Assembly (NCBI RefSeq): GCF_000017545.1
Contig: NC_009718.1
Location: 868,001-932,000 of the forward strand
Direction: 5' to 3'
DNA from: Fervidobacterium nodosum Rt17-B1
GTDB lineage: Bacteria; Thermotogota; Thermotogae; Thermotogales; Fervidobacteriaceae
DNA: 64,000 nucleotides
A model generated the notes under the pieces. It searched no databases. It had not been told where the DNA came from and saw only the letters and a list, made by a program, of their open reading frames with translations. Below, piece by piece: positions 49,455 to 58,375 of this stretch (position 1 is the first letter of the stretch; each line of letters begins with the position of its first letter). The position numbers were made by a program, and so were the translations under genes.

Positions 49455-50687
49455 ATGGCACAAAAGTTTTGTTCATTCTGTGGAAGAGCATCAGACAAAG
49501 TTGAAAAACTTATAGCAGGGCCTGGAAATGTGTATATATGTAGTGAATGTGTTGAGCTATTTCACGACATATTACAAAGTGACAAAAAAATAAAACCGAT
49601 GGGTTTTGGACCAAAAGACCGAAGAGAACTGCCAACACCATCAAAGATAAAGCAAGAATTGGACAAATACGTTATAGGCCAAGAGAGAGTAAAGAAAATA
49701 CTATCGGTAGCTGTGTACAACCATTACAAAAGAGTATTCTTCGGTAAGGACACCAATGACGTTGAAATCGAAAAATCAAATATAATACTCATCGGTCCTA
49801 CCGGAAGCGGTAAAACGCTTATGGCAAGAATTCTGGCTAAAATCCTTGATGTTCCATTCGCGATAGCAGATGCAACACCATTAACGGAAGCTGGCTATGT
49901 CGGTGAAGATGTTGAAAACGTAGTACTTAGATTACTCGAAGTAACAAATTTCGACGTTGAAAGGGCACAGTATGGAATCATTTACATCGATGAAATAGAT
50001 AAAATAGCCAGAAAATCACCAAATCCATCTATTACAAGGGATGTAAGTGGTGAAGGCGTGCAAAAAGGATTACTAAAAATCGTTGAGGGAACTATCGCAA
50101 ACGTTCCACCACAAGGTGGTAGAAAACACCCATACCAAGAATTCATAAAAGTTGACACAACAAACATATTATTTATTGTTGGTGGAGCTTTTGATGGTCT
50201 TGATGAGATAATCAAAAGAAGAATTGAAGGAAGCACAATAGGATTCAACGCGCCTGTCAAAAGCAAAGAACAAATGAGATTAGGTGAAATTTTACAGCAC
50301 GTTACCCCAGATGACCTTGTCCAATACGGATTGATGCCAGAATTTGTTGGAAGATTCCCGGTTATAGGCACGTTAGATGATTTGAGTGTAGATGATTTGG
50401 TAAGAATCCTAAAAGAACCAAAGAACGCCGTACTCAAACAATACAAAAAACTCTTTGAAATCGATGGAGTAACATTAGAAATTGAAGAGCAAGCACTATA
50501 TGCTATCGCGAAAGAAGCTTTACGCAGAGGAACGGGAGCAAGGGCGCTCAAGAGTGTGTTCGAAGAAGTAATGATAGACATTATGTTCGATATACCAGAT
50601 TTAAAAGCTGTTGAAAAGGTTATAATAACAGAAGAATGCGTAACGAAGAAAGAAAAGCCAAAGATTTACATGAAAGAAACAGCGTAA
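49455..50687 (+). CDS. clpX: ATP-dependent Clp protease ATP-binding subunit ClpX
   Basis: 410 residues. An N-terminal zinc-binding domain (C6, C9, C29, C32) is followed by the AAA+ module: Walker A GPTGSGKT, Walker [11 protein letters not shown], the pore loop GYVGEDVE, and sensor 2 [12 protein letters not shown]. It unfolds tagged substrates for ClpP, which is not adjacent. The LGF-type loop needed to dock ClpP appears as TIGF near residue 258. A strong AAGGAGG lies before the ATG. Confidence 0.98.
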
Positions 50688-50703: not shown

Positions 50704-51717
50704 ATGATAGTTTTAGGAATAGAAACAAGCTGTGACGAAACATCGGTAGCACTCGTTGAAGATAATACCGTTATCGCTAATTTGGTTTATTCACAGATAC
50801 AAATCCATAAGAAATTTGGCGGTGTTGTACCAGAAATAGCTGCGAGGGAGCATTTAAAAAGGCTCCCCATTCTTTTTTCTGAACTCATTAGTCAAACAAA
50901 TATAAACATTGAGAGAATAGATGGTATAGCAGTTACAAAAGGTCCAGGATTAATAGGTGCTTTACTCGTAGGTGTTTCTTTTGCAAAAGGTCTTGCGTTG
51001 AGATATAAAAAGCCTTTAGTAGGCATTAATCATATAATCGGGCACGTTTATTCAAATTACCTTGCATATCCAGACTTAAAGCCACCGTATATTGTCCTTA
51101 TGGTTTCTGGTGGCCACACACTTATATTAAAAGTTGAAGAAAATAACAACGTAACAATACTTGGGCGCAGTGTAGACGACGCAGTTGGAGAAGCATTTGA
51201 TAAAATCGCGCGCTTGCTTGGTCTTGGTTATCCAGGTGGTCCGGAAATAGATAAAATTTCTAAGAACGGCAATCCTAACGCTTTCAATTTCCCAAAACCA
51301 AAGATGTACGATCCAGATTATAACTTTAGCTTTTCTGGGCTTAAAACAGCTGTGTTGTATGAAATAAAACGATTAACTAAAAGTGGCTACAGCGAGAATA
51401 ACCTTCCAATACCGGATTTAGCCGCGAGTGCCCAAGAAGTTATGATAGACGTACTTCTGCATAAAGTTACAAAAGCGGCAAGAGATAATAATCTAAAAAA
51501 TATTGTTTTAGCAGGAGGCGTAGCCGCTAACAGTAGACTAAGAGAGAAAATTAGAGCTTTATCTGAAGAATTCAACTTTTACATCCCACCTTTGGAATAT
51601 TGTTCGGATAATGCCGCAATGATTGCACGAGCCGGATTGGAAAGAATAAAATCAGGAGAGAATGATGGATTAAATTTCGAACCTGTACCAAACTTTTTTG
51701 AAATGATGAGCACATAA
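50704..51717 (+). CDS. tsaD: tRNA threonylcarbamoyltransferase TsaD
   Basis: 337 residues, ASKHA fold. Metal ligands lie in GINHIIGHVYSN (the HxxxH pair) with the ATP motif LMVSGGHT, and the conserved start is VLGIETSCDETSVALVE. With TsaB and TsaE it transfers the threonylcarbamoyl group to A37 of ANN-reading tRNAs. Seventeen bases after clpX with GAGGTGT. Confidence 0.98.
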   Translation: MIVLGIETSCDETSVALVEDNTVIANLVYSQIQIHKKFGGVVPEIAAREHLKRLPILFSELISQTNINIERIDGIAVTKGPGLIGALLVGVSFAKGLALRYKKPLVGINHIIGHVYSNYLAYPDLKPPYIVLMVSGGHTLILKVEENNNVTILGRSVDDAVGEAFDKIARLLGLGYPGGPEIDKISKNGNPNAFNFPKPKMYDPDYNFSFSGLKTAVLYEIKRLTKSGYSENNLPIPDLAASAQEVMIDVLLHKVTKAARDNNLKNIVLAGGVAANSRLREKIRALSEEFNFYIPPLEYCSDNAAMIARAGLERIKSGENDGLNFEPVPNFFEMMST

Positions 51718-51764
51718 TCACATAATTACATGGAGGTTATTAAAAATAGTTACGAGGTGTACCC

Positions 51765-52868
51765 ATGGGAAGTTTTACAATAGAAATCGATGCGGAAAAA
51801 TTAAAAGATATATTGAAAAAAGCTGATAGAGTATGTGGTACACTTGAGCCATCAAATAGAAAATTAACGTTCTTCCCACAAGAAGGAAAATTGTACCTAA
51901 TGGCCTCAGATAGTTGCTTTAGAGGTTATTTTGAACTCTCACCATATCTTTTTTCTAAACCATTCCAACCTTTCCAGATATCACTTGATGTTGTAAAACA
52001 ATTCTCTTCGGAATTGTTAGGAAGAGTTAATCTACTTTTCCAAGATGGTATTGTAACCTTCAAATGCCAGAATGAGATTCTACGTTTGCGTGTCAATTAT
52101 ATAGAAAATATGGCTATCCAAAAAGTCCCGGAAAAAATGGTATTAGTTTCTAAGAAAAAATTTCTTAGTGATTTTGATCTAGCCTCATGTTTTATCGAAG
52201 AGGGTAGCAACGTTGATATATTCATTAGTCCAAATAACATAGAGTTAATATCACACCACTCTGGTATGTTATCGTACATAAAACTGGGAACACAAAACAT
52301 TGAAGAATCGGAAGAAAAAGGAACATTTGAATTTAAGCCGGGAAGCTTTTCTACGAGTATTCCTTATGTTTCAGCAAGGCATATTATAAAAACATTTGAT
52401 TTAGAGGAAATCGAAGAAATAAAGATACATTTTGATGAACTTGACCAGAAAATGTACATTTTAGGAAATGATATTTTCACCGTATGTGGTGATAAACCAA
52501 CAGAAACTCCAGAAAAAATAAGAAATCTTTGCAACAGATTTCAAATGCAAGCTAAAATAAACGCAGCTCAACTTCAAAAACTATTAAGAAGGTCACTTAT
52601 ATCCGGTCGCTTCTCCGATACCCAACTTTACACTCGAAACGGAGAGCTTGTTGTAGTATCACAATACGGAGGAATAGCTTACAAAGGAGGAATAAATACA
52701 GAAATTAATGTGAATTTTTCTATAAAAATAAAGGCACACCTTTTAAGGAGTGCCCTAAACCGTATGGGAAGTCAAAATGTGTTAATTAGCATTGTTGAAG
52801 ATTTCGTCCTCTTCTCTTCTCCATCACTCACCAGATTCCTGATTTTGAGAAATGAGAGAGTTGAGTAA
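51765..52868 (+). CDS. Divergent DNA polymerase sliding-clamp (DnaN-like) protein
   Basis: 367 residues, the length of a bacterial beta clamp. Three segments of ~120 residues each follow the clamp plan. Domain 1 starts FTIEIDAEKLKDILKKADRV and holds KLYLMASDSCFRGY (compare LxATDxE). Domain 2 spans about 120-245, with SIPYVSARHIIKTF and a following strand pair. Domain 3 begins QMQAKINAAQLQKLLRRSL and ends near FLILRNE in place of the usual YxxMPxR end. Identity with typical clamps is low, and the clamp's usual LMP-type end is changed. GAGGTG lies before the ATG. The genuine dnaN would be elsewhere. Function unknown. Confidence 0.75.
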   Translation: MGSFTIEIDAEKLKDILKKADRVCGTLEPSNRKLTFFPQEGKLYLMASDSCFRGYFELSPYLFSKPFQPFQISLDVVKQFSSELLGRVNLLFQDGIVTFKCQNEILRLRVNYIENMAIQKVPEKMVLVSKKKFLSDFDLASCFIEEGSNVDIFISPNNIELISHHSGMLSYIKLGTQNIEESEEKGTFEFKPGSFSTSIPYVSARHIIKTFDLEEIEEIKIHFDELDQKMYILGNDIFTVCGDKPTETPEKIRNLCNRFQMQAKINAAQLQKLLRRSLISGRFSDTQLYTRNGELVVVSQYGGIAYKGGINTEINVNFSIKIKAHLLRSALNRMGSQNVLISIVEDFVLFSSPSLTRFLILRNERVE

Positions 52869-53270
52869 CTTTAGAGCTTCCGTTCTATAAGTCGTATTCT
52901 TCGCAGAATTTATACTCTCTGTGTTTTCTTTTCCTCCTAAACTCCTGTAAATCATATCAGATAAATCTTTTAAATCCGTTTTCGCTGTCTTTAATGCGTA
53001 TTGTTGCAAAAGCATTTCTCTAAACCAACGCTCACCAAAACTCTCCTGTATTAATCCACTCTTAGGTACAGTATTATACATCTTTTTAAAAATCTCGTAT
53101 ATGTACCACGCTGCAAACTCTTCGGAAACTTTTTTGAGTTGTTTTTGATAATTTTCTGCGTCTTTAGAATTGTTTACATTATCAATATTCAACTGCTTGT
53201 TATTATTTTGAGGTAAATTCAAAGTTGTTCTAGAAAGGTTCAAAGGTTTAAGTTCCACATTATCACCCAC
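52824..53270 (-). CDS. Flagellar rod-binding protein, FlgJ N-terminal domain only
   Basis: 148 residues. The middle (about 40-110, EEFAAWYIYEIFKKMYNTVPKSGLI ... ERWFREMLLQQYAL, split here) matches the rod-binding domain PF10135. No muramidase domain follows. It probably caps rod assembly in the periplasm, downstream of flgI. Its last 45 bases overlap the end of the DnaN-like gene, tail to tail. Confidence 0.8.
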   Translation of the reverse strand: MGDNVELKPLNLSRTTLNLPQNNNKQLNIDNVNNSKDAENYQKQLKKVSEEFAAWYIYEIFKKMYNTVPKSGLIQESFGERWFREMLLQQYALKTAKTDLKDLSDMIYRSLGGKENTESINSAKNTTYRTEALKLLNSLISQNQESGE

Positions 53271-57310: not shown

Positions 57311-58375
57311 TTATATTTTTTCTACTTCGTTCAAATGCACTGTAACAGGAGTTTCTCTACCGAATATGGTAACATTTACCTTAAGTTCTTGCTTTTCTTC
57401 ATCAACTTCTTTCACTATACCGCTAAATCCTTCGAATGGACCTGTGATAATCTTTACAGCGTCTCCCGGTTGAATTTCAAGCTCAACCTTCGCAACTTGA
57501 GGTTTTGCTTGAACTGTTTCTTCGAGTCCTGCCATCCTCAGTATGTAATGCACTTCCTCTGGCTTTAATGGAAGAGGTCTTCCACCTGCCGATACAAACC
57601 CCATAACAAATGGCGTACCTCTAACAAATTCCCATGTGTGATCATTCATTATCATTTCAACGAATAAATAACCCGGATATAACTTTTTCTTCTTTGTTTT
57701 TTGAATTACAATTTCCCTTCTTGTTGCGAAATCAACAACACTAACTCTTCCTGTACTCTTTGAAAATATCTTTTTACCCTCAGCCAAAATTTGTCCAGCT
57801 TTTAATTGAACACCTTTTTTTACAACAGCCGAATTATATACATCAGCAGGTATAATATAAACATCTTCATCACCAAAAGAGGTTCTGACAACAACTTTCT
57901 TTACCTTCTCATTTACAATGACTCTTCCATCCATATCACAAATAAATTCATCGCTTGCGGCAAGAAACGTTCCTTGGAAAACGTTAGAACCAACTCTTAA
58001 TCCGGTAACTGGTTTAGCCGATTCTGGAATTATATATGTCCTCGAAAATTTTTTATCCATCGTTTCAACAATTATTCTTCTTGCGTTTATAACTTCAGAA
58101 ATAATTCCATCACGTCTAACTTTGATAGAAGGTTCTTCAGCTAACAAATCTCCTTTTTCAACATCGGCTCCGTTGTTCACGTGAAGCTTAACCTCATGTG
58201 TAACAACGTGTCTTTCAAGTGATTTACTTGAAGTATCTATAACAGTCTCTTCTAAAACAATAACACGCGATACAAGATTACGATAACCTTGGGCCTCTAT
58301 CTTTGCCTCAAGGTTCTCTTTAACTTTGTTTTCATACCCGGTAATGGTATGAATTATATACCATTCTTTTTTCAT
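57311..58375 (-). CDS. nusG: Transcription termination/antitermination factor NusG, long form
   Basis: 354 residues against about 180 in most bacteria. The NGN domain is split: residues 1-45 and about 234-285, with a large insertion between. The C-terminal KOW domain (about 300-354) has GDAVKIITGPFEGFSGIV. The insertion is a known Thermotogales feature and contains three degenerate repeats (64-117, 126-176, 185-234), each with a G..V..G.LA core and ending near YIIP or LYP. NusG binds RNA polymerase and Rho or S10. Sits 12 bases after secE. Confidence 0.97.
   Translation of the reverse strand: MKKEWYIIHTITGYENKVKENLEAKIEAQGYRNLVSRVIVLEETVIDTSSKSLERHVVTHEVKLHVNNGADVEKGDLLAEEPSIKVRRDGIISEVINARRIIVETMDKKFSRTYIIPESAKPVTGLRVGSNVFQGTFLAASDEFICDMDGRVIVNEKVKKVVVRTSFGDEDVYIIPADVYNSAVVKKGVQLKAGQILAEGKKIFSKSTGRVSVVDFATRREIVIQKTKKKKLYPGYLFVEMIMNDHTWEFVRGTPFVMGFVSAGGRPLPLKPEEVHYILRMAGLEETVQAKPQVAKVELEIQPGDAVKIITGPFEGFSGIVKEVDEEKQELKVNVTIFGRETPVTVHLNEVEKI

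Follow-up and report, generated by a model that had tools for sequence, protein, structure and literature searches.

Bacteria are thought to run both replication and repair on one beta sliding clamp, DnaN, which offers its clients one shared peptide groove. Clamps also occur in phages. DnaN proper is captured by the Pfam families PF00712, PF02767 and PF02768 and by TIGR00663, and is represented by structures such as 2POL (E. coli) and 1VPK (T. maritima). A second chromosomal clamp gene in addition to dnaN has been described in Bacillus, where it is called DnaN-2 (PMC3290774). Among the clients of the clamp is PolC, a polymerase limited to Firmicutes, Fusobacteria, Tenericutes and Thermotogae (PMC3919608), and the interaction of its QxxLF tail with the clamp is essential in B. 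subtilis (PMC12309361). Here, we describe a second, highly divergent clamp homologue from Fervidobacterium nodosum, referred to below as clamp2. A search of mostly open-access literature found no earlier description of this family.

A divergent homologue of the beta clamp

The window analyzed here is a stretch of 64,000 nucleotides from the F. nodosum Rt17-B1 genome (1,948,941 bases, a single contig). The clamp2 ORF is intact from ATG to stop, encodes 367 amino acids at 51765-52868 (+ strand, as are all clamp2 features given below), and is preceded by a ribosome-binding-site-like GAGGTG at 51754-51759. It comes after glmS, clpX (49455-50687, +) and tsaD (50704-51717, +) on the same strand, with a gap of about 47 bases to tsaD. 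Its 3' end overlaps by 45 bases (52824-52868) that of a convergent ORF (52824-53270, −), named as flagellar (rod-binding, FlgJ-like) from a reading of its sequence and from its flgI/flgH-like neighbors, without a profile. The initial annotation had set this position after clpX and tsaD against the usual company of dnaA or recF. The position itself is correct, but it is not distinctive, as the authentic dnaN of the same genome (G000:C1:1295672-1296790; 373 amino acids, ending in VLPVRA) adjoins neither dnaA nor recF within the 3.3 kb of sequence read at its locus. The presence of this gene, which the annotation had advised looking for, also means that clamp2 is not the sole clamp. Elsewhere in the window, a NusG-like ORF of 354 amino acids (57311-58375, −) contains an insert that makes it well above the usual length, a feature known for Thermotoga NusG.

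As a single sequence, clamp2 matched no family in Pfam or NCBIfam and no clamp in the PDB, a single-protein scan of the genome collection recovered no relatives, and clamp2 and the DnaN of its own genome did not retrieve each other in a pairwise genome search. Homology emerged from family profiles only. A profile of 22 clamp2 sequences had a single match among all PDB sequences, a beta sliding clamp (E = 1.2e-5). With a 34-sequence profile the top 14 PDB matches were beta clamps, the best being T. maritima 1VPK (E = 3.8e-6), and beyond beta clamps there was no match below E = 0.4. PF00712 was matched by 7 of the 22 members and PF02768 by 3, TIGR00663 was touched by only 1 of 34, and the window protein failed the curated DnaN models (0 families). 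PHROG 947, a family of phage DNA polymerase processivity factors, was matched weakly by 16 of the 34 (best E = 6.8e-8). Aligned with hhalign, clamp2 and Thermotogota DnaN are co-linear over their full length (316-344 columns, 98%).

An AF2 model, for which the input was the window clamp2 plus seven relatives from the genome collection, reached a pLDDT of 87 and a pTM of 0.85 and repeats the same strand/helix order three times. This order places domain 1 at residues 1-112 (51765-52100), domain 2 at residues 122-245 (52128-52499) and domain 3 at residues 258-367 (52536-52865), all with approximate boundaries. Foldseek searches with the model matched E. coli and mycobacterial clamps with a TM score of 0.78 (E = 1.7e-20), and each of the best 50 matches was either a beta clamp or an entry containing one (TM, normalized by query length, 0.73-0.78). 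Phage clamps were also matched, with E values down to 5e-20, and were no nearer than cellular ones. The LMASD segment, previously flagged as an ATD-like turn, indeed aligns with the ATD turn found in domain 1 of DnaN. Both profiles and the structure prediction point to the same fold, and we regard it as virtually certain that clamp2 is a homologue of DnaN over its whole length and has the three-domain beta-clamp fold predicted for it, which bears out the earlier reading of a DnaN paralogue with a three-part clamp plan. Clamp2 is a member of the beta-clamp fold family but falls outside DnaN proper, since it does not pass the curated models and lacks the canonical peptide groove, as discussed below.

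Distribution in Thermotogota and linkage to polC

The initial annotation considered a second clamp unusual. Clamp2 does stand beside an ordinary dnaN, but it is no oddity of one strain. Clamp2 is present in 39 of 41 genomes of the window's own order. The first profile (E ≤ 0.01) found it in 97 of 103 Thermotogota genomes, mostly as a single copy, and a wider profile raised the latter count to 98 by adding a clamp2 fragment in a draft genome (G072) whose polC reaches the contig end. Five genomes (G036, G043, G044, G096 and G097) have no clamp2 detectable with the wider profile, the gene being either absent or diverged past detection. The first profile found no match at 1e-6 in 287 genomes of other phyla; the wider one gave a few matches there (best E = 3.9e-11) with scores below that of the best Thermotogota DnaN, which are presumed to be the ordinary dnaN of those genomes. 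Phage and plasmid records in the collections searched contained no close relative of clamp2. Ordinary DnaN was also present in 39 of the 40 relatives, the exception being a genome that is 60% complete (G005) and yielded a chance match only.

The clamp2 tree sets off nearly all family groups by a single branch each, and close pairs have dN/dS values of 0.04-0.20, indicating purifying selection. We consider it very nearly certain that clamp2 is an ortholog family spanning the Thermotogota, and its phylum distribution, family-keeping tree and low dN/dS identify it as an old, functional and vertically inherited gene. Within the genus its sequences share 49-59% identity versus 78-85% for DnaN. At one Thermotogales locus (G028:C1:11000-13600, f2), an almost complete clamp2 whose end is altered is immediately followed by a partial second copy (197 amino acids, the last half) that is identical over most of its length; this pair is a recent tandem duplication. 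A Thermosipho MAG carries an extra DnaN-like gene beside dnaN and clamp2 (G018:C23:20508-21593), 29% identical to Fervidobacterium DnaN and perhaps derived from a mobile element.

In 30 genomes from the Kosmotogaceae and most Petrotogaceae, clamp2 lies directly after polC on the same strand, in the order ruvC-polC-clamp2. With polC called by TIGR01405 and adjacency taken from clamp2 and polC coordinates, the arrangement occurs in 16/16 Kosmotogaceae-like genomes (f9) with intact clamp2 and in 14/21 Petrotogaceae-like genomes (f10). In five such loci that were read, polC and clamp2 are separated by 5-11 bases or overlap by 11 where measurable, and an ORF of 163-170 amino acids reading as RuvC precedes polC in four. 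Fervidobacteriaceae, the family of the window, show no such adjacency, nor do Thermotogaceae or the remaining families. Because one Petrotoga-like locus (L118) carries clpX-tsaD just beyond polC-clamp2, the Fervidobacterium order clpX-tsaD-clamp2 looks like the remnant of one ancestral cluster. In a T. maritima-like genome (G031) clamp2 sits between alaS- and hslO-like ORFs, and we take this gene to be TM1395 of T. maritima. A role for clamp2 linked to PolC is plausible, if somewhat short of probable; adjacency to polC, even if conserved, need not signify physical partnership.

Petrotogaceae-like genomes also contain a second, shorter PolC-like gene of roughly 900-1020 amino acids (G089:C1:1984984-1987356, with counterparts in G076-G078, G087, G088, G090-G092, G094 and G095). 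This is perhaps the extra, exonuclease-less PolC of Thermotogae that has been mentioned previously (PMC3919608).

Groove and predicted subunit interface and pore of clamp2

Seven residues of the canonical QxxLF-binding groove (L155, R176, F241, P242, N320, P363 and R365) that are fixed in 14/14 DnaN sequences are not kept in clamp2, with L155 of the DnaN groove having no aligned partner at all. The C-terminal FLILRNE (52836-52856) aligns with VVMPMR of beta and retains neither the groove proline nor the arginine, in keeping with the replacement of the MPxR end already annotated from the sequence. If PolC had switched clamps, with clamp2 as its private clamp, loss of the clamp-binding tail of PolC would be expected. 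This loss was not seen, and the idea was dropped: the C-terminus of Thermotogota PolC reads QxxLF in 10 of 12 sequences, with QIQMF in one of the remaining sequences and QITLI in the last. With the groove gone from clamp2 but the tail kept in PolC, the clamp bound by PolC is probably still DnaN, and clamp2 would use a site elsewhere.

Conserved residues outside the groove suggest where that site may be. Glu28 (51846-51848) is near-invariant (54/55 E, 1 D). D49-x-C51 (51909-51917), which is D-G-C in most members and was positioned from DSSP order, appears in the model to take the place, within domain 1, that the TDGHRL turn has in domain 2 of DnaN; Asp49 is kept in 53/55 clamp2 sequences and the aligned Asp of the DnaN ATD turn in 14/14. 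Cys241 (52485-52487; 51/55) is at the end of the last domain-2 strand, which by strand order would be the counterpart of the strand bearing MPMR, with Glu28 nearby. This arrangement points to a putative client site where domains 1 and 2 meet, a placement that, like ring closure and pore geometry, rests on alignment to E. coli beta.

The salt-bridge residues of the standard DnaN interface are replaced in clamp2. Of the 20 top co-varying column pairs, 5 join the domain-1 and domain-3 interface faces where 0.34 would be expected, and 5 remain when Petrotogaceae are omitted; hypergeometric figures for this enrichment ignore relatedness. The first-ranked of 55,664 pairs links Glu104 on the domain-1 edge strand (52074-52076) with Tyr306 on the domain-3 edge strand (52680-52682), and falls to rank 412 without Petrotogaceae. 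These positions hold E/D/Q with Y/F in 45 sequences and M/I/L with I/L in 10, with no mixed cases, but the switch represents only about two changes on the tree, on which a sign test has no power. In E. coli, the corresponding residues are on the strands where two subunits touch, as are those changed in the R103C/I305C mutant (3PWE). The co-variation of E104 and Y306 is suggestive of a subunit contact, although not proof of one, and the pattern as a whole favors a self-assembling clamp2 ring. The hydrophobic form of the 104/306 switch, common to Petrotogaceae, was also observed in short (323-329 amino acids), very divergent clamp2 proteins from two Thermotogaceae-side genera (L111 and L112; f3, g8 and g12).

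The six pore-lining helices per chain, assigned by analogy with E. coli beta, have a mean net charge of +9.6 in clamp2 (n = 55) versus +1.7 in DnaN (n = 14) and +5 in E. coli, and the contrast between clamp2 and DnaN is stable to window shifts of up to two residues. The most conserved residues (P200, R205, K209, H206 and R333) are on or beside these helices. The motif P200-Y-x-x-x-R205-H206-x-x-K209 (52362-52391) lies on or beside the second helix of domain 2 (helix 201-212), which lines the pore in clamps, and its P200, R205 and K209 are present in 55/55 sequences. The second helix of domain 3, also pore-lining in clamps, contributes R328 to R333 (52746-52763), with R333 in 52/55 and R328 in 44/55. 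The positively charged pore named by the annotation as a supporting feature is thus predicted here in a form stronger than that of DnaN, and the option it had raised of a lost DNA role is made unlikely by these basic helices. Clamp2 is likely to form a DNA-encircling ring, and we think it reasonably probable that it pairs with itself rather than with DnaN.

Proposed role and comparison with known clamps

On balance, the explanation we favor, as more probable than not, is an ancient second sliding clamp, specific to Thermotogota, that would pair with itself, have its own client site and act in a PolC-linked or repair step. Two subunits, or an equivalent number, would form a six-domain ring by head-to-tail contact at a self-specific interface, and the strongly basic pore of this ring would surround double-stranded DNA and grip it through PYxSxRHxxK. 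The client would be bound at a different conserved patch, probably the domain 1/2 junction with Glu28, Asp49-Gly-Cys51 and Cys241, and not at a QxxLF groove. The ruvC-polC-clamp2 operon suggests that this client would most likely act in replication, repair or recombination in connection with PolC. The QxxLF proteins, PolC included, would remain clients of ordinary DnaN. Loss of the groove, if real, would be hard to square with loading by the standard clamp loader and counts against the proposal. The more specific version, two-clamp replisomes in which a clamp2 ring with its new domain 1/2 site is dedicated to PolC or to PolC-linked repair, is tentative.

The alternatives differ in which of these features they can accommodate. 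Some archaea have heterotrimeric PCNA, and by this model clamp2 and DnaN, which share a genome and a fold, might assemble into a mixed ring, which would have a single canonical groove together with a single new site; the altered salt-bridge residues would even allow for a special interface. However, the basic and acidic residues that DnaN would need opposite its own are gone from clamp2, and the co-variation links the domain-1 and domain-3 faces of clamp2 itself, which a mixed ring would not require. A heteromer consequently seems unlikely. The fast divergence of clamp2 and its lost canonical groove could instead indicate an inactive regulator, a clamp fold kept off DNA that acts on PolC, the clamp loader or repair factors by competing for them or sequestering them. 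The predicted pore is the opposite of what this would entail, with helices more basic than those of DnaN and holding the most conserved residues, and we judge such a regulator quite unlikely.

Alternatively, the Thermotogota ancestor could have domesticated a phage clamp, which then supplemented a host function. This would fit the PHROG 947 matches and the structural matches to phage clamps, but phage clamps do not match the fold any better than cellular clamps do, and no phage or plasmid record in the collections searched holds a close relative. This explanation, which we consider improbable, would in any case address the origin of clamp2 and not its present role. Bacillus provides a precedent for simple redundancy, in which clamp2 would be a spare DnaN whose function overlaps that of the first, yet there DnaN-2 is about 40% similar to DnaN-1 (PMC3290774), whereas clamp2 and DnaN have no pairwise match. 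The missing QxxLF groove residues and the retention of clamp2 for the age of the phylum with conserved residues of its own further argue against redundancy, making a back-up copy very improbable.

If the two-clamp replisome version is correct, Thermotogota would be the first bacterial phylum with a near-universal two-clamp system. A phylum-wide clamp with its groove removed and its pore strengthened would show that clamp duties are divisible in bacteria, and would provide a natural setting in which to ask why bacteria with PolC have 2 replicative polymerases. Clamp2 would also supply thermostable clamps for biochemistry. Its identification corrects annotation as well, as curated models miss this gene, which is also present in the T. 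maritima-like genome.

Compared with known systems, clamp2 resembles PHROG 947 through weak, repeated profile matches, and differs in being chromosomal, vertically inherited and without a close phage relative in the collections searched. With Bacillus DnaN-2 it has in common a second chromosomal clamp gene in addition to dnaN, but DnaN-2 is a recognizable copy, whereas clamp2 is ancient, phylum-wide and past pairwise recognition. With DnaN itself, clamp2 shares the three-domain fold, order and length, the ATD turn, the basic pore helices and an alignable C-terminal hydrophobic strand. It departs from DnaN in lacking a curated profile match (for the window protein), the QxxLF groove residues and the MPxR end, in its replaced interface salt-bridge residues and far more basic pore helices, and in motifs of its own, GTxEP, DGC and PYxSxRHxxK.
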